IMG/VR virus record: IMGVR_UViG_3300006917_000105
Location: 1 to 29,111 of that record
Strand: one strand, 5' to 3'
Length of the DNA: 29,111 bases
DNA from: a virus
Shown here: in pieces, positions 7,923 through 28,332 of the stretch
Layout: each line of letters begins with the position of its first letter
How positions within the stretch are numbered: the first letter of the stretch is position 1
Translations under genes and position numbers: made by a program
Notes under the pieces: generated by a model
Told to the model about the DNA's origin: nothing
Databases searched by the model: none
Seen by the model: the letters and a program-made list of their open reading frames with translations, nothing else

Positions 7923-10885
7923 TGACCACTTCTGCGGGCGTCAAGAACTACTCAGGCGGGGCAGGCACCCTCTCTGGGGTTCCCAACCTCTCGAATGTGC
8001 CCAACATTGGCGAGATCAGCGCCCAAGACCTCAGCGACTTGACCCAGCAAATCTCGTCCTCGTGGATCGTTGGAAAGCTGTTTCCGAACGAGATACCCGG
8101 CCTAGACAAAGTCAAGAAGGGCTTCGACTCGATAGCGCAGTTCCTCGTGCAATTGCTGGAGATTGTCAATCAGATCCTGCAAGTAGCTAAGGTGTTCGTC
8201 GCCGCCTATGCGAACCCGGTACAGACCCTAGCCAAGGTGCTGATCGACCAGATCAAGGTACTGATCAACGACATCGCGCAGATCGGCGTGTACATCACCT
8301 CTGACGCAGACCTGTTCAAGGACATCGGCTGGCCCTTTGCGCCGCTGCGTGGTGGCTACTACGCCTACGAGCAGCGCATGGTTGCCCGCCTGACGGATAC
8401 GTCTGACCCGACTCGGCCCAACGTGTCGAACCAGACCTACGTTCTGGGCGTGTTCGCCTACGCCTCGGTGGACATCACTGGGGTCTACCAGATGCTCAAG
8501 GGCATCCAACAGCTTTTGGCCCTGTTCTCCTTCAGCCTGCCCGTCAACGCCCTGCCCTCCTGCTCACCGCCCAAGGTGCGCTACGGCTTCGACCCTTACA
8601 ACCTCGTTGCCTCTTTCACGGTGGCGTTTCGCAATGCCTCTAACCCAGTGACGATTGCGAACCTCGAATGGACAATCGACCGCCCACGAGCGGGAAGCCC
8701 TGTGCTGACTGTCCCCCTGCCACCCCCGCAGGGTTTCATTATCGAGGTCTCGACCGTTCTCGGCGGTCTCGCACTTTTCGTTGACCGCCCCTCCTCGACC
8801 AAGGGCGGCAGTGTGTCGGACAAGAGTGGCAACAGCGCCGAGCCGCGTGAGATCGTTATCGCCACGGACAGTGACGATGACCCGGTGATCGTGTACGGCG
8901 GCTTCGATGTGATCGACTGCAAGTCCGAGAATTCCATCTCGACGGCTTACGACACCGCTGGGAACCTCAAGCCCGGAGCCAACTACTACTTCCTCGCTCG
9001 CGTCAGTGACAAGGCGTCGAACGAACTCATCCCCCCCGACAAGCTGCTCAATACCGAGGACGGCACCTATTACCTCCAGCGTAGCTTCAAGCTGTCGCAG
9101 GCCGAGTTGGTGCTTGACCCCACCATCGGCGTTTACCGCTATGCCCTGAACGCCAAGGACATGCCGCACGAGGCATCGTTCGTCCGCAACGGCGACAAGT
9201 TCGATGTAATCGACCTCGGCCAGCCCTCGAACTACTACGTCCGCATCTCGGCCATCTCCGACGAGGCTGACCAGTACCCCATCGGCAACCCGCAGTCGGC
9301 ACTCCAGTACGACCTGACGAATCCCCCCGCGCCTCAAGGGGACGTTATCGTCACGCTGATCAACCAAGCCAAGCCGTCTGTGCAGCGAGGCAAGCCCAGC
9401 CTGCCTGCCCCGCTGGTATTCCCTTCCAAGCAGACAAACGAGTTGCTCTCGTCGCTTCGCTCGGCACTGGCTCTCATCGTGCTGCTGAGGGCTGACCTCA
9501 GCGTGCTGGATTCTAACGGATGGGTGTTTGACCCCACGGTCGAACTCTATCGCAGCACCAAGACGCTGCCTGACATCCTCGCGCACAAGCTGCCCGCTGG
9601 CCCCTACGCACAATCCGTCTTGCCCTTCACAGACGGCCTCGGAACGAACCTAGAGTCGTTCGCCAACACCTTGTTCTCTCAGATGGTGCCCAACAAGGTT
9701 CCCTACTACAACGGCACGACGCAAACGCCCGAGGCGTGGGGGCAAGCCCTGTACGGCGTGATCAGCAATCTGGCCGACCAGCTATACAAGCAGACAGGGA
9801 GCCTGCCTGCCGTCGAGAAGCTGGTATCAGAGAAAACTAAGGAACTCCGCGAGTTGACCTTCACCGAGATCAGCGGGGGCAAAACAGACTTCGATGCGAC
9901 CATCCAGAGTGTTCTGCTGGGCAAGTACAAGGACGGCACGGACTTCACTTACGAAGGCCCCGGCGCAAAGGGCATCGCCTCCTCAACCCATCAGGTGACC
10001 AAGGCCAGTGGTCTTGCCCTCTCCCCCTCCACGCTGAAGTCAAACGATTTTCCTTACCTGTGGCAGGAGACCCCGCGCTACACGCTCCTTGAAAGGCAGA
10101 ATTACGAGAGGGCAAATGCCGACATCAATTCCGCAGGGACGCTCGGGATTGGAGGCTATTCCTCTCCAGAGGCGTACATGGCCGTCTTTGGCTACCGCAA
10201 GGGAACCCAGAAAGAGTTTGGCGTGGGAACTTCGACCACTGTCGAATACCTCCAGCTAGACGAGAAGCCCCCGCAGAAAATCCACTTCCAGAGTGAAGGG
10301 TTTCCCATTGTCTACAGCCTCAACACCTTCGGGTCGGGCTTGGCCGTGCAATACACCCCGATCCGCTCTCTGTTCGATACCACGCTGGGTCGGCAAGTCT
10401 TGGATCAAGCTCAACTTGTGCTGGGCTACGTTGCGGCTCAGGTACAGCAAGGGCCGATCAAGGGCCAGTGGTACGCCCTACGCTTCGGCAACACGTTTGC
10501 AGCGGGTGCCCTCGAACGTGCGCTCCAAGCGTTCAACCAGTACGTCAAAGCGGTCAACAACGCCTTCGCCAGCGCGGTGCGCGTGATCACCGATTACATC
10601 GACTTCTTGCAAGCCCGCATCCGCGAACTGCAACGCTTTATCAACCTGATCAACTACTACATCCAGCAGATCAACCTCATCGTCATCCCGCAACTCGGCC
10701 TCCTAATCACCATCGCCCCCGGCACCCAAGGCACCCTGTCGGCCTTCCTCTCGGCCAAGAACAAGCCCATTGACGGTGCCGTCACCTATGGGGCAGGAGC
10801 GGCGGTTGTCGTGCCCCTGCTGGCAGGAACCAAGTTCATCCTCGACCTCATCATCGCGGCGCAGAAGGCGAACGCAGGAGGCTAG
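7922..10885 (+). CDS. Large virion structural protein (987 aa) with helical ends
   Basis: The ATG overlaps the upstream TAA by one base, and the SD upstream is weak (GTGGGGG), consistent with coupled translation. The sequence shows three zones. Residues about 40-210 are helical and aliphatic (for example VQLLEIVNQILQVAKVFVAA). The middle (about 210-480) is beta-rich, with segments such as YYFLARVSDKA and YYVRISAISDEA that look like fibronectin-III or Ig-type strands. The C-terminus (about 875-987) has amphipathic helices and a hydrophobic, Ala/Val/Ile-rich tail (AAVVVPLLAGTKFILDLIIA). The terminal hydrophobic stretch could be membrane-active or simply packed in an oligomer. A tape-measure role is not favoured, because the middle is beta-rich rather than continuous helix. 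Probably a tail or baseplate-associated virion protein; the family is not recognised. Confidence 0.75.
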   Translation: MTTSAGVKNYSGGAGTLSGVPNLSNVPNIGEISAQDLSDLTQQISSSWIVGKLFPNEIPGLDKVKKGFDSIAQFLVQLLEIVNQILQVAKVFVAAYANPVQTLAKVLIDQIKVLINDIAQIGVYITSDADLFKDIGWPFAPLRGGYYAYEQRMVARLTDTSDPTRPNVSNQTYVLGVFAYASVDITGVYQMLKGIQQLLALFSFSLPVNALPSCSPPKVRYGFDPYNLVASFTVAFRNASNPVTIANLEWTIDRPRAGSPVLTVPLPPPQGFIIEVSTVLGGLALFVDRPSSTKGGSVSDKSGNSAEPREIVIATDSDDDPVIVYGGFDVIDCKSENSISTAYDTAGNLKPGANYYFLARVSDKASNELIPPDKLLNTEDGTYYLQRSFKLSQAELVLDPTIGVYRYALNAKDMPHEASFVRNGDKFDVIDLGQPSNYYVRISAISDEADQYPIGNPQSALQYDLTNPPAPQGDVIVTLINQAKPSVQRGKPSLPAPLVFPSKQTNELLSSLRSALALIVLLRADLSVLDSNGWVFDPTVELYRSTKTLPDILAHKLPAGPYAQSVLPFTDGLGTNLESFANTLFSQMVPNKVPYYNGTTQTPEAWGQALYGVISNLADQLYKQTGSLPAVEKLVSEKTKELRELTFTEISGGKTDFDATIQSVLLGKYKDGTDFTYEGPGAKGIASSTHQVTKASGLALSPSTLKSNDFPYLWQETPRYTLLERQNYERANADINSAGTLGIGGYSSPEAYMAVFGYRKGTQKEFGVGTSTTVEYLQLDEKPPQKIHFQSEGFPIVYSLNTFGSGLAVQYTPIRSLFDTTLGRQVLDQAQLVLGYVAAQVQQGPIKGQWYALRFGNTFAAGALERALQAFNQYVKAVNNAFASAVRVITDYIDFLQARIRELQRFINLINYYIQQINLIVIPQLGLLITIAPGTQGTLSAFLSAKNKPIDGAVTYGAGAAVVVPLLAGTKFILDLIIAAQKANAGG

Positions 10886-10887
10886 AC

Positions 10888-11832
10888 ATGAGTTCCTTTA
10901 GCTTCATGTCCAAGTACCGCACAGGGTATTACCTTGGCGTTCGCTCCTTTTTGCTTCGAGAGCGGCGCAGCGTTCCTGACCGTATCTCGCACATCAACGC
11001 CGAGATTTCCCGCATCGGAGAGGTCGAAGTCGTCTACGACAAGTTGACGAGCGCGGACGGCAGCGTCAGAGCGACCGAGAAGCGCATTGGCTTTTCCGTC
11101 ACACCCGAATCGACGCTAGAGAAACTCCTTCGCGCCTACATCGTGCAAGGGGGTAACCCGCTAGACATCAGCATGTTTCTCATCCCAGACCTCACCGAGG
11201 ACGGCGAGGAGGTCAACGGTGCGACAAGAGAGAACGAGAAGTACCCCTACGGAGGCGTAGCCTACCCGCTGACGACAGAGCAGCACGCGACCAATGACGG
11301 CCCTGCAACAGGCACCCTCTCCGTCGAAACCCAGAAGCAGCAGGAGAAGGGGCCAGCAGAGACATGGGGCGACTACCCCGGCGGCTATCTCAACATCATC
11401 AAGTACCCACCTCGTCGCCTCAGTGGCCGACTCGACCCCGACCAGACGGCAACGCTGAACTCGATGGCCTTCCACGACATCCGCAAATGGGCCAACGCAG
11501 AGATCCGCTACAAGCTGCACGACCTTGAGGCTCGGATCATCAAGCAGTGCGACTTGCGCGAGCAACTCAAGAACGAACTCGAAGTTATGCTCTCGCAGGC
11601 ATGGGGCGGCATCTTCTCTGGCCTCAAGTGGAACGAAGAAACCAACGTCAAGGATCGGCGTGTCTCGGAGTCGCTGGTCGCCCTCGACCGCGAGATGTTC
11701 CTGTTCTCGTCAGAGTACACCCCGTCGGGCAACAACACCTCGCGGATGCTGCCCGACCCCTCGGGGGTCAACGTCAACAAGTGGCGGTATCTCGACGACC
11801 CGACGGAAAACCTGCTCGACCTGATGCCTTAG
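10888..11832 (+). CDS. Hypothetical protein, probable virion-associated (314 aa)
   Basis: The ATG lies 2 nt after the upstream TAG, with a strong SD (GCAGGAGG) inside the end of the upstream gene. The protein is soluble-looking and rich in charged residues. Its N-terminal half includes a basic stretch (FLLRERRSVPDRIS) and a predicted beta-hairpin. The middle is Glu/Gly/Pro-rich and probably loosely structured (about residues 105-170). A helical segment around 190-245 contains KWANAEIRYKLHDLEARI. I recognise no catalytic motif or family. It is the last gene of the left-hand structural block; the first copy of the conserved intergenic element begins directly after its stop. The start and reading frame are secure; the function is unknown. 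Confidence 0.75.
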   Translation: MSSFSFMSKYRTGYYLGVRSFLLRERRSVPDRISHINAEISRIGEVEVVYDKLTSADGSVRATEKRIGFSVTPESTLEKLLRAYIVQGGNPLDISMFLIPDLTEDGEEVNGATRENEKYPYGGVAYPLTTEQHATNDGPATGTLSVETQKQQEKGPAETWGDYPGGYLNIIKYPPRRLSGRLDPDQTATLNSMAFHDIRKWANAEIRYKLHDLEARIIKQCDLREQLKNELEVMLSQAWGGIFSGLKWNEETNVKDRRVSESLVALDREMFLFSSEYTPSGNNTSRMLPDPSGVNVNKWRYLDDPTENLLDLMP

Positions 11833-11834
11833 CG

Positions 11835-11895
11835 GAAAGTCGTTAGCCCAGCCAGCCTCCCGCGTACACAGGGCGAGGAGGCCGGGAGCCTCCCG
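11835..11895 (+). promoter_or_regulatory. Conserved intergenic element, copy 1 (putative promoter plus leader hairpin)
   Basis: Contains GAAA (11835-11838), 3 nt, GTTAGCCC (11842-11849), 11 nt, CGCGTACAC (11861-11869), then 7 nt and a stem-loop GGAGGC / GCCTCC (11877-11882 with 11888-11893, 5-nt loop). The same blocks at the same spacing recur ahead of two other small genes. TTAGCC and TACACA are 16 bp apart, a spacing compatible with -35/-10 boxes, which would place the hairpin at the 5' end of the mRNA. A strong SD (AAAGGAGG, 11897-11904) follows. The arrangement is directly visible; the promoter function is inferred. Confidence 0.6.
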
Positions 11896-11908
11896 CAAAG
11901 GAGGCCGA

Positions 11909-12196
11909 ATGGAAACTGTCGCCTACATCAAGACCCTCGCCAACGACCCCGCCTACGCCTACATGGCGGTCACGGAGGTCGAGGTCGAAGCCGCTCTCGC
12001 GAAGATCGCCGCCAACGGCGAGGAAGCCTCCGTCGAGAACGTGTTCTGGACTATCCTCCTCGGCATCCGCACCCCCGCTGAACCCCTCAACCCCACTTGG
12101 GCCGACGCCCCCCTCCACAAGCAGATCGCTGCCGCGATGGGCATGGACGACGGCGAGGCCGAGATGTTCTACCTCGGACTCGGTATCGAGGACTAA
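11909..12196 (+). CDS. Small hypothetical phage protein (95 aa)
   Basis: ATG with a near-perfect SD (AAAGGAGG, 5 nt upstream-proximal spacing) just downstream of element copy 1. The product is acidic and alanine-rich and predicted mostly helical: METVAYIKTLAND at the N-terminus, an AEVE-type helix, an aliphatic core (VFWTILLGI, about residues 46-54) and an acidic end (GIED). Codons end strongly in C or G (GCC, CTC, ATC, AAC), more consistently than in the giant structural genes, which suggests high expression or a different history. First gene of the seven-gene cassette. No family or function is recognised. Confidence 0.75.
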   Translation: METVAYIKTLANDPAYAYMAVTEVEVEAALAKIAANGEEASVENVFWTILLGIRTPAEPLNPTWADAPLHKQIAAAMGMDDGEAEMFYLGLGIED

Positions 12197-12226
12197 AACC
12201 ACCCCCAAAGCGCAAGGAGTGCCGCC

Positions 12227-12403
12227 ATGTTTACCAAAGGTCAGATCGTCAAGGGCAAAGTCATGGGCGTGTTCATCGTCATTGGCCACAAGGTGGTCGG
12301 CGGCGAACCGATGGTCGTAGTCAAGGCCGTCAACCCCGACAACCACAGCGAGGTCGGTCGCGGTCAGTTCTGCCTGCCCGCCGACAAGCTCGTTGCCCTC
12401 TAA
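12227..12403 (+). CDS. Very small hypothetical protein, possible SH3/KOW-like barrel (58 aa)
   Basis: An ATG with SD CAAGGAG (about 12213-12219) opens a 58-codon frame ending in TAA. The sequence begins MFTKGQIVKGKVMGVFIVIG and then alternates valine-rich strands with Gly/Asn/Asp turns, ending in LPADKLVAL. The lead motif (KGQIVKGKV...G.F.V) and the strand pattern resemble small SH3- or KOW-like barrels, and I believe similar small 'KGQ.V.G' proteins occur in phages, though this cannot be checked here. It follows the 95-residue gene by 30 nt with no copy of the conserved element between them, so the two are probably co-transcribed. Function unknown. Confidence 0.65.
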   Translation: MFTKGQIVKGKVMGVFIVIGHKVVGGEPMVVVKAVNPDNHSEVGRGQFCLPADKLVAL

Positions 12404-12439
12404 GGATTACCTACAACGTCTCGCTCTAGGAGGAAAACC

Positions 12440-12772
12440 ATGCAATACCGCAACGGACAACTCATCGTCATGCAACCCGACGCCTTTGTGTTCAAGGTCG
12501 AGGACGACAACCCCTTGCCCATACCTCAGCAGTCCGACGAACTGCTTGCCATCCTCGAAGTAGGCATGTGCTGGCCCTCCGTCCAAACCGCCTTCGGGAT
12601 CATCTGCCAAGCGTTGATCCATCAAGGTGCCCCCAACGTGGACAACATCGACTGGGCCATCTGCTCGCCTGTCCACCTGTTCGAGGGCGAAGTCATCAGC
12701 GACAAGCCGCCTACCGTCTACCTTGTCCGTCTCGATCAGGTGCTGGGGGTGACGGATGCGACCCCCAATTGA
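12440..12772 (+). CDS. Small hypothetical phage protein (110 aa)
   Basis: ATG preceded by a strong SD (TAGGAGG, about 12428-12434). The product starts with a short beta-strand segment (MQYRNGQLIVMQPDAFVFKV), followed by a Pro/Asp linker and a hydrophobic, cysteine-containing central region (about 33-60, with CWPSV and IICQALI) and ends with beta-like VYLVRLDQV. No membrane segment, signal or known motif is evident. Its TGA stop overlaps the start of the second conserved intergenic element (the GAAA block begins within TTGAAA at 12769-12774), so the element is packed against the gene end. Function unknown. Confidence 0.75.
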   Translation: MQYRNGQLIVMQPDAFVFKVEDDNPLPIPQQSDELLAILEVGMCWPSVQTAFGIICQALIHQGAPNVDNIDWAICSPVHLFEGEVISDKPPTVYLVRLDQVLGVTDATPN

Positions 12773-12834
12773 AACCTGTTAGCCCGGCTCCTCTGCCGCG
12801 TACACCACATGAGAGGGGGCGAGAGACAGCCCCC
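12771..12834 (+). promoter_or_regulatory. Conserved intergenic element, copy 2 (putative promoter plus leader hairpin)
   Basis: GAAA (12771-12774), 3 nt, GTTAGCCC (12778-12785), 11 nt, CGCGTACAC (12797-12805), 9 nt, then hairpin GGGGGC / GCCCCC (12815-12820 with 12829-12834) closing an 8-nt loop GAGAGACA. Block spacing is identical to copies 1 and 3. The SD AAGGAG (12846-12851) of the next gene follows. There is no T-run after the hairpin, so it is not a standard intrinsic terminator; a 5' leader structure or protein-binding site fits better. Confidence 0.65.
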
Positions 12835-12860
12835 ACCACCTACGCAAGGAGACAGACACC

Positions 12861-13166
12861 ATGAAGGTCACCGCCCACAACTACAGCAACGGCCCTCGCG
12901 GTCTGGAATACAGCGGCTTCCGCGCTGACATGTTTATCGACGGCAAACTCGCCGCTCGCGTCTGGAACGACGGCAACGGTGGCCCCAACGCCTATCAGTG
13001 GATGGGCGACTACGCCAACCACCGTGGCTTCACCCCGCCCAAAGCCGTGCAGGACTGGCTCGACTCCCTGCCGCCTGTGTCCTACCACGGCCACAGCATC
13101 CAACTCGACCTCGACTGCGTGTTCGAGGACGCCATCGACGCCTACCGCGCTGCCCGCGCCAACTAA
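12861..13166 (+). CDS. Small hypothetical phage protein (101 aa)
   Basis: ATG with SD AAGGAG (12846-12851), downstream of element copy 2. The product looks like a compact alpha/beta domain: a beta-rich N-terminal half (KVTAHNYSNG, then FRADMFIDGKLAARVWNDG, which reads as a pair of strands with a conserved-looking aromatic/Asn/Gly turn), a PPKAVQDWLDSLPP helix near residues 56-70, and an acidic helical end (CVFEDAIDAYRAARAN). The strand pair around residues 22-50 would suit a small nucleic-acid- or protein-binding fold, but this is speculative. Codon use is strongly C-ending. It ends 8 nt before element copy 3. Function unknown. Confidence 0.75.
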   Translation: MKVTAHNYSNGPRGLEYSGFRADMFIDGKLAARVWNDGNGGPNAYQWMGDYANHRGFTPPKAVQDWLDSLPPVSYHGHSIQLDLDCVFEDAIDAYRAARAN

Positions 13167-13174
13167 CCCCAATT

Positions 13175-13236
13175 GAAATCTGTTAGCCCTTCCCCCCTCC
13201 CGCGTACACCAGATGTGAGGGGCGATGGACAGCCCC
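13175..13236 (+). promoter_or_regulatory. Conserved intergenic element, copy 3 (putative promoter plus leader hairpin)
   Basis: GAAA (13175-13178), 3 nt, GTTAGCCC (13182-13189), 11 nt, CGCGTACAC (13201-13209), 9 nt, hairpin GGGGC / GCCCC (13219-13223 with 13232-13236) and an 8-nt loop GATGGACA matching the copy-2 loop in pattern GA-N2-GACA. Copies 2 and 3 also share upstream CCCCAATTGAAA, but in copy 2 part of this is the end of the coding sequence. The next gene's SD (GGAGG, about 13243-13247) follows. Confidence 0.65.
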
Positions 13237-13252
13237 CAACACGGAGGACGCT

Positions 13253-13516
13253 ATGGCTGACCGCTTCGACATGCCCCGCCTGATGCGCGAGTTCCTGAAC
13301 GTCGCGCTTCGCACCCGCACCCTCGACAGCGCCGAAATGTGGGTGCTGGCCTGCAACCACGGCACCGACTGGACGGCGATGCGGGAGGTAGTGATGCACT
13401 ACGCCTTCGTCCGTCGCCACTGCGACATCGAGGCTCACCGCGAACTGTGCAAGCTCAACGATGAGTGCTACCGCGTGCTGGTCATGGGCCGCGAACCCAC
13501 CCTGCACTTCGACTAA
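13253..13516 (+). CDS. Small hypothetical phage protein (87 aa)
   Basis: ATG with SD ACGGAGGA just upstream and element copy 3 before that. The product is predicted all-helical: MPRLMREFLNVALR, then SAEMWVLACNHG, then a Arg/His/Cys-rich helix (VVMHYAFVRRHCDIEAHRELCKLNDECYRVL, given here as the region of residues about 46-75). Three cysteines and several histidines lie in the last half; they are not arranged in a clear CxxC zinc-binding pattern. The fold suggests a small helical binding protein. It is followed after 11 nt by the next small gene with its own strong SD, so the two form one unit. Function unknown. Confidence 0.72.
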   Translation: MADRFDMPRLMREFLNVALRTRTLDSAEMWVLACNHGTDWTAMREVVMHYAFVRRHCDIEAHRELCKLNDECYRVLVMGREPTLHFD

Positions 13517-13527
13517 GGAGGTCTAAC

Positions 13528-13698
13528 ATGGCTCGCACCCTCAAGAAGGCTCCCTACCGCCCCTACTCCAAGGAGGACAAGGAACACCGCCACGCGACCC
13601 ACGTCCGCTACCGCGCCAAGGTTCGCAACGTGATGGCTGCGGGCAAGTACGATGACGTGCTGCCCTTCAAGGGCACCAGCGGCTGGGAAACCCACTAG
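13528..13698 (+). CDS. Very small basic protein (56 aa)
   Basis: The ATG at 13528 is preceded by AAGGAGG (about 13515-13521), which overlaps the region just after the upstream stop; an earlier in-frame start at 13465 would overlap the preceding gene without an SD, so I reject it. The product is very basic in its first 40 residues (MARTLKKAPYRPYSKEDKEH, then HATHVRYRAKVRNVMAAGK) and ends with a Gly/Trp-containing tail. The charge suggests RNA, DNA or acidic-protein binding, for example a small host-takeover protein, but no family is recognised. It is tightly linked to the gene on each side (11 and 10 nt gaps). Confidence 0.65.
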   Translation: MARTLKKAPYRPYSKEDKEHRHATHVRYRAKVRNVMAAGKYDDVLPFKGTSGWETH

Positions 13699-13708
13699 GA
13701 GATTAGCC

Positions 13709-14092
13709 ATGAGCCACAACCCCGCTGAGAACCTCTGCATCAGTGACCCCATGTTCACCCCCACCTACGAGCGGATCGTCTGGAAGAACCCCTACAAGGG
13801 CCACTTGATGATCAGCTTCCTCTACACCCCCTCCGCTGAAGCCACTAGCTGGGACGGCGTTCCCGCTGACAGCATGGCAGTAGGCTCAGAGAAAGGCGGC
13901 TGGTTCTACATTGGCCTGCGCCGCACGGGCAAAACGCCTACCCGCATCCCCAACACCAACGGCACCCTTGGCCTGCGCTGCAAAATCCTGTTCAACGCAG
14001 ACCGCGCTGGCGTGGACGGCAACGAAAAGGACATGTGGACTGACGGCTATCTGCTCGATGTGCCCGATCTGCCCTACGTCACCAAGTACTAG
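13709..14092 (+). CDS. Small hypothetical phage protein (127 aa)
   Basis: I chose the ATG at 13709, with SD TAGGAGAT (13696-13703) overlapping the upstream stop; a start at 13652 in the same frame would run into the upstream gene. The product appears beta-rich with many aromatics: an N-terminal helix-turn segment (NPAENLCISDPMFTPTYERI), a WKNPYKGHLMISFLYTP strand pair, a GGWFYIGLRR segment (about residues 64-73) with Arg/Thr/Lys-rich loop, a CKILFNADRAG region and an acidic DVPDLPY end. No recognised motif. It is the last gene of the cassette; the next gene is the gp25-like baseplate protein with an 81-nt gap. Confidence 0.72.
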   Translation: MSHNPAENLCISDPMFTPTYERIVWKNPYKGHLMISFLYTPSAEATSWDGVPADSMAVGSEKGGWFYIGLRRTGKTPTRIPNTNGTLGLRCKILFNADRAGVDGNEKDMWTDGYLLDVPDLPYVTKY

Positions 14093-14173
14093 CACGCCCG
14101 TACTGGCCATGATCGAGGATGCTGTGGCAAACGGTTGCGACCCTATGGTGCTTCTCCTTGCGGGAGGTGCCTC

Positions 14174-15484
14174 TTGTCGAGAGATGTCCAGCTTGGGTGG
14201 AACTGCCCGCACCTAGTCCTAGAAGAACGGATTGCGCTGTCAGGCGACCGCCGCGAGTTGGTGACGCTCAACCCCGTCGCCAACGATGGCATTGTTGCCC
14301 TCATCGCCAACAACGAGGTCGAGATCCCTCGTGATGGCCTGTACGCCTATGCCAAGCTCGTGAGCTTCCAAGCTGGCCCCTACACCCTGATCGAGAACGA
14401 GAACGACCTGTCGATCGTCACCTCGACGGAGAACTTTTCGCTGACTCTGCCTGCCGCAACCTTTCTCACCGCCGACGAGGTCGCGCTGGCTATCAACCGC
14501 GCCTCCCCGAGCAAGAAAACCCTCGCCAGCAGCGAGAGGGGGCGGCTGACGATTACCGACCTGTCGAGCATCGGCCCTCGTAGCATCGTGCAAGTCTTTG
14601 GCGGCTCGCTGCCCAAGCTGAACCTCAATCAGCAGTCTGGCGCACAGGGCCGCATGGTCTATCCCCCATGGCAGCTATACTCGCCGCCTGTGACCTTCCC
14701 CAACGGCAACTACACCATCGACCCGGCGACGGCTGAGAACAGCATCCTGCTCATCCAGTCCGAACTGGCCGAGCCTTCTTTGTCAGCCTCTAAGAGGCTC
14801 GCGCTGGAGAAGCAACTCAAGAAGCTGCAAGATTACGTCAAGCAGTACAAGGAGTTGCTGGGTCTGACGCCTACACGCTACCCGCGCTTCGTGCAACCTG
14901 TCAGCGGCAATCCCATGCTGTCGGTCTCGTATGTGACCTCGCAGAACCGCTGCATCAGGTGCCGAGGTTCGGGTGTCGAGAACGACTACCGCTTCACGAC
15001 CACGGCGTCTCTCGCGACCAACACGCAGCCCTCGCGCCCTGCTGGCAGTGTCTACATGGTGAAGAACGAGGACTTGCTGTATCAGGCTGCGCTCAAGATT
15101 GTGCTGACCACTCGCGGCAGCAACCCCTTCCACCCGGCATACGGCTCGACCGTGCTTTCGCGCATCGGCTCCAAGGCTGTGACGGCTACAGCAGCGGCAA
15201 TCAATCAGGATGTGCGCCGAGCGTTGCGGACGCTGCAAGACACCCAGACTTCGCAAGCTCGCTACCAGCCTGTCACGGCGCGTGAGCGTCTTTACGCTGT
15301 GCAGAGTGTCGAGGTCACCCCAGATCAGTATGATCCGACGGTCTACTACGTCGCGGTTACGGTGCAGAACGCCTCTACCGCGCCTATCAGCCTCAACATC
15401 GTGTATGCGACCAGCGGCGTGTTCTCGCGCAGCGGTAACTTGACCCTCGGAAACCAAGCCTTCGGCGGTAGCGCATGGCCCTAA
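14174..15484 (+). CDS. Baseplate wedge protein, gp25-like, with long N-terminal extension
   Basis: I prefer the TTG at 14174 because a strong SD (GGGAGGTG, 14162-14169) stands about 4 nt before it; the longer in-frame start at 14135 has no SD. The product is 436 residues. Its C-terminal part (about 299-425) has the gp25/W-type baseplate signature: a helix with LYQAALKIVLTTRGSNPF followed by HPAYGS, then VRRALRTLQ, QPVTARERL and a strand-rich end. Known gp25-type proteins are about 130 residues and bridge the tail tube and wedge in contractile tails. The N-terminal 290 residues are extra: an early domain with a DEVALAIN motif, a coil around 205-230, and a CIRCRGSG segment near residue 260 that could hold one half of a zinc site. 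The last 10 nt overlap the next gene. Confidence 0.8.
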   Translation: MSRDVQLGWNCPHLVLEERIALSGDRRELVTLNPVANDGIVALIANNEVEIPRDGLYAYAKLVSFQAGPYTLIENENDLSIVTSTENFSLTLPAATFLTADEVALAINRASPSKKTLASSERGRLTITDLSSIGPRSIVQVFGGSLPKLNLNQQSGAQGRMVYPPWQLYSPPVTFPNGNYTIDPATAENSILLIQSELAEPSLSASKRLALEKQLKKLQDYVKQYKELLGLTPTRYPRFVQPVSGNPMLSVSYVTSQNRCIRCRGSGVENDYRFTTTASLATNTQPSRPAGSVYMVKNEDLLYQAALKIVLTTRGSNPFHPAYGSTVLSRIGSKAVTATAAAINQDVRRALRTLQDTQTSQARYQPVTARERLYAVQSVEVTPDQYDPTVYYVAVTVQNASTAPISLNIVYATSGVFSRSGNLTLGNQAFGGSAWP

Positions 15485-18400
15485 ACCCCAAGTTCTACGG
15501 CCCCGACAACACCCTGCGGCAGGAGTGGATCTTCACCACGACTCGCACGCAGCGGTTCCTCACGGGCACCCTCGACCCGCAGACGGCTTACGTCGAGGTT
15601 TCCGTCTACGGCGGGGCGTTCACTGCCGACCCGAACCTCGTGACCTTCGAGGGAACCAGCTTCACCGTGCCCAACCCTACGGCGTACCCGCAGGGCTTGC
15701 GGCTGCTGCCGGGATCGAACGTCATCAAGGTGCGCTCCGTGCTGACCAGCGGGGCGACGACCGACTACGCGACGGCCAACATCACGGTGGTGCAGGCAGA
15801 GGGCCAGCTAGGCACCTACACGCCGCCCTCGGGCATCTCCGTCGAGCGGCTCGATGGTCTGATCAAGGTCATCATCCGTTCGACCGTCTTGCAGACCAAC
15901 CTCGTCGGGCACAACTTCTACGCCACCTCGCAGATCGGCGGCGGCACGATTGGCTATTACCAGATCAACCCCACGCTGGTGCAGGCAGAGGACGCAGAGT
16001 ACCTGATGCAAAGCACTCTCGTGGGCACGCTGATCGTAGACAGCCCCATGTACCAAGACCCCAACGAGGTCACACAAGACATCTCGTTCCGTTACCAAGG
16101 TAGCCAAGTCGGTACGCAAACCCCCTCGGTGACGATTGTCCCCGAGTTCGACGAACTGATCCTGTTGCCGCCTTACAATGACCCCGACAGCCCACTCAAA
16201 CTTCGCAGCACCATCACGCTGGAAGCCTTGTCGCGGACGTTCCTCTACACGTTTACGCACGACCGCTACGGCGACACCTTCTCGGTGCATCCGACCCTGC
16301 CCAACGGCATTTTGTCAGCGGTCATCCCGACGGAACCTCTCTACTACGCGGCCACGGCGGTCTACTACGACCCCCTTACCAGCACCGAGGTTGAAACGGC
16401 TCTGAGTGCAGAGGTGTCGGGCATCCCGCTGCAAGTCACTCCCGCTATCGGCACCTTCCCCATCGCAACTCGTCAGGAGGTCACGCAAGACCTCGTCGAG
16501 TCGATTTACCGCACCAACCCCGACATCTCCGTCGTGCCCGGCAGCGTCATCCGCGACACGTTCATCGACCCGATGGCCAGCGAGTCTGAGCGTCTGCGCT
16601 ACATCATGGACTTTGTCCATCGGGCGCAGAGCTTTACGACTCTGCTGGCCATTGACGACCCAGAACTCACTGGCACAAGCATCCCCGTTCGCCAGTCCAC
16701 CTACAAGCTGGCGCTCGCGCAAGCCTTTCGCCTCACCGACCTCAATCAGGTGCAGGGCATTATCGACATGGCCTTTGACAAGCTGGCGAGCAACTTCGGC
16801 CAGCCGCGTCTCGCAGGCAAGGCGGCAGAAGGCGAGGTCACGTTCTCTCTGTCGTCGATCCCGCTCAATACCATCCTCCTGCCCATCGGTACGACGGTCA
16901 GCGGTGGTGGCGTTGAGTTCACCACCACTTCGAGCGTCACGTTCGACCCCAACAACCTCGCCCCCTTCTACAACCCCGCCACAGGTCGGTATGCCGCCAA
17001 GGCGTACATCCAATCCTCCGTCAACGGTCCTAGCGGCAACGTGCCCTCACGAGCCATTACCTCTGTTGGCGTGTCCAACGTCAGCGTGTCCAACGAGGCC
17101 CCGACCTTTGGCGGCACGGCGGCTGAGACCAACTACAACCTCGCTACTCGTTGCATCCGCACGCTAGCCTCGGTGGACACCAGCACCTATCAAGGCATCA
17201 TCCAGACGGCGACGAACATCGCGGGCGTGCTGGAGGCTAAGATTATCAGCGCAGGAAGCCCCTACATGCTGCGCGACGTAGACCCCACCACTGGCAAGCA
17301 CATGGGCGGCAAGGTGGACGTGTGGGTGCGCGGCACGCAAACCAGCAGCAACACAGACACCTTCGCCTTCAGCTACGAGAACATGTACGGCGTCACCTTC
17401 GAGGTCGTCGGCAATGTGGCTGACCTGACCTTCCGCGCCATCCTCAAGGACGCCAACGGCAACTCCCTGCTCTCGGCAAATACCCCCCTGACGCAGATGC
17501 TCAACTACCCCTCGAACACCCCTCCGCTTGGGTTGCACAACGTCTCGCAGGGGTACGACTTCATCCTGACCAACGTGTCCTACCCCGGCTTCGACACTAT
17601 CAAGCTGGACGCGACCTACAACGATCCGACGGCTGTGTCCGTGGCCGACGTGCTGACTGGCGACTTTCGGATGCGAACGAGCTTCGAGTACTCCTTCAGC
17701 CGCCAGCCCGTCCTCTTTGTCTCCTCGGTCAACGGCAACCCGGATGCCACTGGCACGGTTAGTTTCTCGCAGTACCAGCTATACAAGCTGGAGTCGCCGT
17801 TCCAACTCGGCCAATCGAGCTACGCGAACGATTACATCCAGTTCAGCAGCCCTGAGCCGAATGGTGCCCTCGGCGGCGTGCTGACCCAGACGGACGAGAG
17901 CCACGTTCTGATCGGCAACTACATCGAGCGGCTAAACTTGCTCGGCCAGAACGCGCTGACGATTGCCGTTTGGAACCTCGCTCGAACGGTGCAATACAAG
18001 GCGGTCAGCCCCTACGAGTCCTCGCCCGACTTCCGCATCGTCGCCCCGGCTGACCCGATGAAGGAAGCCTACGGTATCCAGCGCACAGAGCAGTCCACCA
18101 TTGCCAGCGGCGAAACCGTGCTTGTGGACTACGAGTACAACGAGAACTTCACTGTCACCTACACGACCAACGCAGTTATCGGCGTGGCCCAGAACGACAT
18201 CGACCGCAAGCGCAGCCTCACTGCCGACATCGTGGTCAAAGAGGCCAACGCCCTCGTCGTGGACATCGACGCCACGGTGGTCTTGCAGCAAGACCAGCGG
18301 TCTAACATCGTGGATCCCCTGATCCGTGCGAGCATCATCAACCTGATCCTCAACTCCCCCCTCGGCTCGGGTATCCGTCAGGGCGATGTGATCAGCGCCA

Positions 18401-27525: not shown

Positions 27526-28332
27526 ATGATTATGAAACTCTGCCCTGCTTGCAAAGTTGAGAAGCCTTCAACGGAGTACGGTTTCAGCCGTACTCGCCGT
27601 GATGGTCTTTCTCCTTACTGTAAGCCGTGTGGCAAAGAGAAGGCAAACGCCCTCGCCAAACGGCCAGATCAGGCGCAGAAGCGCAAGGACTGGTACGAGG
27701 CCAATCGTGACAAGGTGCAGAAGCAGGCCAAGACCCGCTGGCAGGAAAAGAAAGAAGCCTACAACCCTGCGCGACAGCGATGGGCAGAGGAAAACCGCGA
27801 CAAGATGTTGAGGCACCAGAAAAATCTGCGTATCTCCTTCTTGGCCTTCATCGAGGAGATGAAGAAGGGTAAGCCCTGTTTGGATTGCGGCAAGGCATAC
27901 CCCAGCTACATCATGGAGTACGACCATGTGCGCGGGGAAAAGCGATTCAACATTGGCGGGATGGCGCACCATAAGCGTGATCGGGTGTTAGACGAGATCG
28001 CCAAGTGCGAACTCGTCTGCTGCGCTTGTCACCGCACCCGCAGCCACAAACGCCGCCAAGAAGCACAGACAGAGAGGCTGGTGGCGTTCAGAACATGGGT
28101 CAATCTGCTCAAGGAGAACCCTTGCAAAGATTGTGGTGCAGTTCTTCCTGCGGAAGCTATGGACTTTGACCATGTGCGGGGCGAGAAGAAGAAGGGTATC
28201 TCCAACATGTGGACTTGGCCACGCTCAAAGGTCTTGGCTGAGTTGGGGAAGTGCGATCTCGTATGCGCCAACTGCCACCGCGAACGAACAATTCAACGCC
28301 TATGGTCCATTGAAGGCAGGAAGGCAGCATGA
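27526..28332 (+). CDS. HNH-family endonuclease with zinc finger and two tandem HNH modules
   Basis: A 268-residue frame from ATG 27526 (an ATG at 27532 is an alternative); the SD is weak. The N-terminus has CPAC...CKPC (residues about 6-32) with a DGLSPYC motif, a zinc-finger type frequent in phage HNH proteins. After a basic helical linker (about 40-105) come two similar modules. Module 1 (about 121-180) has CLDC, EYDHVRGEK, and LVCCACHRTR. Module 2 (about 200-262) has CKDC, DFDHVRGEK and LVCANCHRER. Each has the CxxC, D-H and C-x-x-C-H elements of HNH/ββα-metal nucleases, so both could be active. It is probably a free-standing homing-type endonuclease nicking a related phage genome. Base and codon use, especially at its start, is more A/T-rich than in its neighbours, consistent with transfer. 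Its stop overlaps the next start. Confidence 0.8.
   Translation: MIMKLCPACKVEKPSTEYGFSRTRRDGLSPYCKPCGKEKANALAKRPDQAQKRKDWYEANRDKVQKQAKTRWQEKKEAYNPARQRWAEENRDKMLRHQKNLRISFLAFIEEMKKGKPCLDCGKAYPSYIMEYDHVRGEKRFNIGGMAHHKRDRVLDEIAKCELVCCACHRTRSHKRRQEAQTERLVAFRTWVNLLKENPCKDCGAVLPAEAMDFDHVRGEKKKGISNMWTWPRSKVLAELGKCDLVCANCHRERTIQRLWSIEGRKAA

Follow-up and report, generated by a model that had tools for sequence, protein, structure and literature searches.

A two-block element repeated before small genes of a probable huge-phage fragment, most likely a lineage-specific promoter family with attached leader hairpins

Introduction

Why does one precisely spaced sequence recur three times before unrelated small genes in the midst of a phage tail module, and what might read it? 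The question is raised by the IMG/VR virus record IMGVR_UViG_3300006917_000105, the whole of which (29,111 bases, a genome fragment) is here called the window; copy counts given for it cover 29 kb only. The structural genes of the window share 36-38% identity with their counterparts in LR745208.1, an uncultured and unannotated huge phage of 485 kb, and more weakly resemble baseplate genes from Tunturiibacter phage Tunturi_5 and Bacillus phage G; the window thus probably derives from a huge-phage genome. A preliminary description of the locus had read the repeats as a phage-specific promoter family. Our follow-up leads us to conclude that the element is most likely a virus-specific switch that turns on add-on small genes, since LR745208.1 carries about 50 copies of a differently spelled, similarly laid-out signal.

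Results and Discussion

Small genes inserted between two tail genes

Synteny with the relatives L007-L013 and with LR745208.1 delimits a 2.3-kb insert (11833..14173, + strand) that holds seven small genes and three elements and lies between two tail/baseplate genes: g4, a 314-aa structural gene (10888-11832), and g5, a gp25-like baseplate gene with a probable TTG start at 14174, whose matches to gp25/sheath-initiator proteins are weak and below cut-off. Gene order is the same in relatives; the g4/g5 gap measures tens of bp in L007, L008, L010, and L011 and is filled by other small genes in L009 and LR745208.1. Behind copy 1 of the element stands s1, a 95-aa orphan gene (11909..12196, +; SD AAGGAGG at 11898-11904), followed by s2 (12227-12403, +) and s3 (12440-12772, +); behind copy 2 stands the 101-aa gene s4 (12861..13166, +; SD AAGGAG at 12846-12851); and behind copy 3 stands s5, an 87-aa orphan gene (13253..13516, +; SD GGAGG at 13243-13247), followed by s6 (13528-13698, +) and s7 (13709-14092, +). 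When four of the small genes were searched against phages, only s4 had a match, and a weak one, with none found for s1, s3, or s5. The small genes are mutually unrelated, including those behind the three copies. Duplication of neighboring genes, the outcome that the preliminary description had named as fatal to its reading, therefore fails as an explanation, but two of the element copies are themselves probably duplicates, as set out below.

Elsewhere in the window, between structural genes at 27526-28332, is a 268-aa protein whose cysteine/histidine repeats resemble a doubled HNH nuclease; it has several partial homologues in LR745208.1 and no Pfam match.

Three exact copies with conserved blocks and divergent spacers

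The element reads GAAA-N3-GTTAGCCC-N11-CGCGTACAC and matches exactly at three places in the window, all on the + strand: copy 1 at 11835..11869 (GAAA 11835-11838, GTTAGCCC 11842-11849, CGCGTACAC 11861-11869), copy 2 at 12771..12805 (12771-12774, 12778-12785, and 12797-12805, in the same order), and copy 3 at 13175..13209 (13175-13178, 13182-13189, and 13201-13209). No further copy occurs elsewhere in the window at up to three mismatches, and 100 dinucleotide shuffles of the window contain none, so that the three sites and their identical spacing stand as first described, as does the 16-bp distance from TTAGCC to TACAC. All 21 of 21 block positions are identical in every pairwise comparison, and spacer positions agree at 5-8/14, where the C-rich composition of the 11-nt spacer would by itself give about 40%. 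The 11 nt earlier described as unconserved are not random in composition, 58% of them being C.

Copies 2 and 3 remain alike well past the blocks, with 84% identity across 77 bp, and are probably one duplicated cassette. Copy 1 agrees with them at only 3/8 upstream and 5/13 downstream flanking positions, its likeness being confined to the blocks. Because copies 2 and 3 share flanks, the claim of selection on two separated blocks is independently tested by the comparison of copy 1 with copies 2/3, where it stands, and not by the comparison of copies 2 and 3 with each other. The element had also been called intergenic, which needs amending for copy 2, since its GAAA overlaps the TGA stop of s3 (12770-12772). 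The two-block element is real, selected, and repeated.

The sequence CCCCAATTGAAA (12763-12774 and 13167-13178) forms the coding end and TGA stop of s3 at copy 2 and is non-coding at copy 3, an arrangement that looks like the product of joining a gene to the element. Such flanks could be read to mean that the element is a boundary or cassette sequence, kept mainly for recombining or shuffling small genes and free of any regulatory role, or else a recent duplication that has not yet decayed; the copies do mark the edges of inserted small genes, the flanks of copies 2 and 3 are alike, and s3 does end inside copy 2. We consider this reading very improbable, as copy 1 retains every block position while spacers and flanks agree at only 36-50%, which argues for selection on the blocks and not for recency. 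Shuffling of cassettes would in any case be compatible with a promoter role and may add to it. An integron attC site and an intrinsic terminator were both rejected on sequence.

The 16-bp distance matches -35/-10-like geometry, and the preliminary description had held the blocks to be unlike the host sigma-70 consensus. Compared by eye with TTGACA and TATAAT, TTAGCC and TACACC each match at 3/6 positions, and no sigma-70-like promoter was found in 10500-15500; a host sigma-70 promoter was accordingly discarded. These observations also bear on the idea that the element is an operator, bound by a phage repressor or activator at several small-gene operons. The blocks lie about two helical turns apart and several copies stand before genes, as such a site would require, but the blocks are neither inverted nor direct repeats of each other, unlike most operators, and the stretch 10500-15500 offers no sigma-70-like promoter to control. 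With the LR745208.1 element, described below, itself reading as a promoter, we judge an operator improbable.

Stem-loops and leaders

Downstream of each copy, 7-9 nt after block 2, begins a GC stem-loop, followed by a strong SD, an arrangement already noted in the preliminary description and borne out by perfect stems of 6, 6, and 5 bp in copies 1, 2, and 3, all within 32 nt past block 2; for comparison, stems of at least 5 bp occur at 11.8% of window positions and stems of at least 6 bp at 3.0%. The copy-1 stem-loop (11877..11893, +; 17 nt), evident from sequence, folds, and stem statistics, is GGAGGC-CGGGA-GCCTCC and can be extended by outer GCG/CGC pairs with a bulged A. That of copy 2 (12815..12834, +) is GGGGGC-GAGAGACA-GCCCCC, with a fold z of -3.3, and that of copy 3 (13219..13236, +) is GGGGC-GATGGACA-GCCCC, with a fold z of -1.75. 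The loops of copies 2 and 3 share GA-N2-GACA, again as described; the 5-nt loop of copy 1 is unrelated to them. From block 2 to the ATG the distance is 39, 55, and 43 nt, respectively.

In copy 1 (11877-11904), GCCTCC can pair either with the upstream arm GGAGGC or with an SD-containing GGAGGC, so that this leader may have two states. In copies 1 and 3 the C-rich spacer can be drawn as paired with the stem that follows it, but the structures disagree between copies, and under a promoter reading the spacer would lie outside the transcript, so that we disfavor such pairing.

Hairpins in this position invite an RNA-level reading, in which blocks and hairpin are both transcribed from an upstream promoter and serve as an antitermination site of boxA/boxB type or in translational control. 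Read-through from the upstream structural genes is likely because all genes lie on one strand, the 7-9 nt between block 2 and hairpin resemble boxA-boxB spacing in all copies, and the copy-1 3' arm can reach the SD. The core of boxA, however, is CTCTT, which CGCGTACAC lacks, and since loop and stem both differ in copy 1, the copies have no conserved protein-binding hairpin in common; on these two grounds a nut-type antitermination site was rejected. Folds of the whole leaders are inconsistent between copies (z of -1.8, -2.0, and -0.4), a search with the Rfam 15 covariance models gave no match, and the LR745208.1 element consists of two blocks with no hairpin. An RNA-level leader therefore seems to us unlikely.

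Distribution among relatives and a second leader motif

Outside the window, the element was found only in L005, a strain 99.7% identical to it, when viral contigs (with four patterns) and genome contigs were searched; L005 has 29 differences in 9203 bp, none of them inside the elements. No moderately distant relative with the same element sequence was found in these collections. A scan of L007-L015 and LR745208.1 at up to three mismatches gave no excess over a reversed control. Isolated single matches to less than the full element in L015-L018 and L110-L112 were taken as chance; the one in L015, at the end of a homologous tail gene, has different spacing, no GAAA block, and no second copy. De novo dyad searches returned nothing in G001, G002, G005, and G008, and in G009 only GC-rich words (e.g. 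GGGCGTAA) with no two-block likeness; the contigs so searched are mostly short and structural. In the 266-kb relative L015 (IMGVR_UViG_3300032243_000867), Sigma70 region 2/4 is matched several times and GGGCGTAA is in excess within intergenic regions.

A different motif, CYTATRG, occurs at 14142-14148 in the leader of g5, and the hexamer CYTAT(A/G) occurs in the leader of the g5 homologue in seven relatives, L007-L013. Intergenic DNA of LR745208.1 shows about 8-fold enrichment of CYTATAG, which in several instances stands 7-31 nt ahead of a gene outside the stretch where that phage's first element (below) is frequent. We regard CYTAT(A/G) as a candidate second promoter class, perhaps a late one. 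It thus seems that the structural module has a leader motif of its own, and because the motif before g5 differs from the three-copy element and is common to relatives, we assign the latter to the inserted genes.

LR745208.1 carries its own two-block element and sigma-like proteins

An intergenic dyad search of LR745208.1 gave one overwhelming signal, GATT-N3-CTAAAAA-N14-CCGATAGGG, with 51 occurrences at up to two mismatches against 0 and 1 in a reversed-pattern control; its core form is GATT-N3-CTAAA-N16-CCGATA. Nearly all copies examined (48/49) precede an ATG-started frame, at a median distance of 20 nt and with a median product of 79 aa. The copies lie mostly within the first 160 kb and include three back-to-back divergent pairs. 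The element matches the sigma-28 consensus, TAAA-N15-RCCGATA, and on that basis reads like a sigma-28 promoter. Our literature search found no phage precedent for sigma-28 promoters, which by itself does not prove their absence. As the only other genomes in which this element turned up are near-identical strains of LR745208.1, elements of this type are lineage-specific. No LR745208.1 homologue of a window small gene was found to be preceded by it.

Two LR745208.1 proteins, of 197 aa (near 420 kb; L088 1183-1776) and 269 aa (near 154.1 kb; L089 1210-2016), contain Sigma70 region 4 above the Pfam cut-off, with no match to Sigma70 region 2; the RNA polymerase domains Rpb1_1 and Rpb2_6 (beta/beta' large subunits) were not detected in this genome. 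The gene for the 197-aa protein overlaps a 207-aa gene (L088 1761-2384) whose product has a weak KOW-motif match. Jumbo phages that lack an RNA polymerase and redirect that of the host by their own sigma-like factors have been reviewed (PMC13282480), and LR745208.1, with region-4 proteins present and large-subunit domains undetected, fits such a phage steering host RNA polymerase.

The two elements have the same layout: GA(A/T)(A/T) at position 0, block 1 at +7, a C-rich (pyrimidine-rich) spacer, and block 2 in about the same register. Both lie upstream of small genes, with LR745208.1 copies on either strand, and both are lineage-specific; TGTGAGG stands at +39 in window copy 3 and at +38 in the LR745208.1 element. 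The blocks themselves differ (CTAAAAA and CCGATAGGG in LR745208.1, GTTAGCCC and CGCGTACAC in the window), as do the distance from block 2 to the ATG (about 20 nt versus 39-55 nt), the number of known copies (about 51 versus three), and the hairpin, present only in the window. Scored against a weight matrix of the LR745208.1 element, the window copies jointly score highest when GAAA is placed over GATT, with a column-permutation p of 0.006-0.01 when the shift is left free and about 0.2 with the two main blocks only; among 58,132 window positions, copy 3 ranks 27th, copy 2 444th, and copy 1 1002nd. These p values and ranks are somewhat generous, as the register was first seen by eye, and the window copies fail the CTAAA-N16-CCGATA consensus blocks. 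Common descent is plausible, and homology of sequence is weakly supported. For the preliminary description, comparison with relatives thus yielded a similar layout in LR745208.1 but further exact copies only in L005; its promoter family gains by analogy with the roughly 51-copy element, while the same sequence recurs in no moderately distant relative.

Comparison with known systems

Among the closest precedents are the PeSL (promoter-early stem-loop) cassettes of T4-type phages (Arbiol 2010; Comeau 2014), as related in PMC4503421 and PMC3950731. In those accounts PeSLs, like the window element, join a promoter-like motif to a stem-loop among small ORFan genes, which suggests shuffling cassettes. 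They are described there as early promoters whose stem-loop makes a promoter-terminator composite, whereas the window blocks are not sigma-70-like and the stem-loop, which has no T run, lies downstream of the promoter; no terminator-like site was found at the window stems. In the haloarchaeal virus HGTV-1, a promoter-like motif with an inverted repeat precedes most ORFs of one genome half, but this is an archaeal virus and its motif is archaeal TATA-box-like (PMC3950731). The SAS/ESAS repeats of cluster K mycobacteriophages lie just upstream of non-structural start codons, partly with inverted repeats (PMC3203893). SAS, which is GGGATAGGAGCCC, contains the SD and lies 3-7 nt from the start codon (PMC3203893), whereas the window blocks lie 39-55 nt upstream and do not include the SD; GGGATAGGAGCCC is absent from the three window leaders. 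SPO1-type late promoters, CGTTAGA-N17-19-GATATT as cited in PMC3601020, share GTTAG in the -35 block and use a phage-encoded sigma-like factor, of the kind proposed here; their -10 GATATT is absent in the window (ACACCA or GTACAC), so that only one block matches, and they belong to a different genomic class, that of late genes. By sequence, the window element is not a member of any of these four groups. It most likely adds to a known kind, phage-specific promoter families, here with an attached leader hairpin.

A promoter family with 5' hairpins

Several two-block copies with fixed spacing and divergent spacers lie upstream of genes in the transcribed orientation, as the members of a promoter family do, and we think it probable that the element is such a family, specific to this phage lineage, whose transcripts would start with a 5' hairpin. 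Speaking for this are the three exact copies, their -35/-10-like geometry, their position 39-55 nt upstream of small genes on the same strand and ahead of strong SDs, the many copies and region-4 proteins of LR745208.1 with beta/beta' undetected, the joint matrix fit in the GAAA/GATT register, and the distinct motif at g5. Speaking against it are the low number of copies (three, two of them probably duplicates), the two-block matrix similarity, which is not significant, the failure of either block to match a known sigma consensus, the confinement of copies in the searched collections to one 99.7% identical strain, the lack of a hairpin in LR745208.1, and the fact that the 29-kb fragment shows no sigma-like gene.

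From this layout we infer promoter activity, start sites, recognizing factor, timing, and hairpin function as follows. The -35-like block, an extended one, would be GAAA-N3-GTTAGCCC and the -10-like block (CG)CGTACAC, spaced as one would expect for a sigma-type holoenzyme. The reader would probably be either the host RNA polymerase core equipped with a sigma-like factor from the phage or a host holoenzyme that the phage has modified. Each copy would turn on a small orphan-gene operon (s1-s3, s4, and s5-s7), these operons being carried, in our proposal, as an insert among late structural genes. Starts are predicted about 7 nt past TACAC(A/C), near 11877, 12813, and 13217, which is 0-2 nt before the stems (11877, 12815, and 13219) and would give an mRNA with a 5'-terminal hairpin and then an open SD. 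Since 5'-terminal stem-loops shield mRNAs from 5'-end-dependent decay, we propose that the hairpin likely protects or insulates the mRNA 5' end ahead of the SD, with an extra translational effect possible in copy 1, where the 3' arm can pair with the SD. As the LR745208.1 element has no counterpart to it, the hairpin may be accessory.

Conclusion

More tentatively, and with clear doubt, we suggest that the huge phages of this tail-gene clade may each have evolved a private promoter code, read by a diverged sigma-like factor of their own and used as a cassette that switches on newly acquired small genes wherever they have landed, even in a late structural module; the code would be sigma-28-like in LR745208.1 and GTTAGCCC/CGCGTACAC in the window phage. 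For LR745208.1, the analysis supplies a set of about 51 putative promoters together with two sigma-like proteins as candidate factors, and thus a concrete pairing of promoter and factor. In archaeal viruses, new anti-defence genes were discovered by way of a regulatory sequence that early genes share upstream (PMC11065993). If our reading is true, the motif described here would likewise mark those small genes that a huge phage, known from metagenomes only, keeps under private control and may direct at its host.
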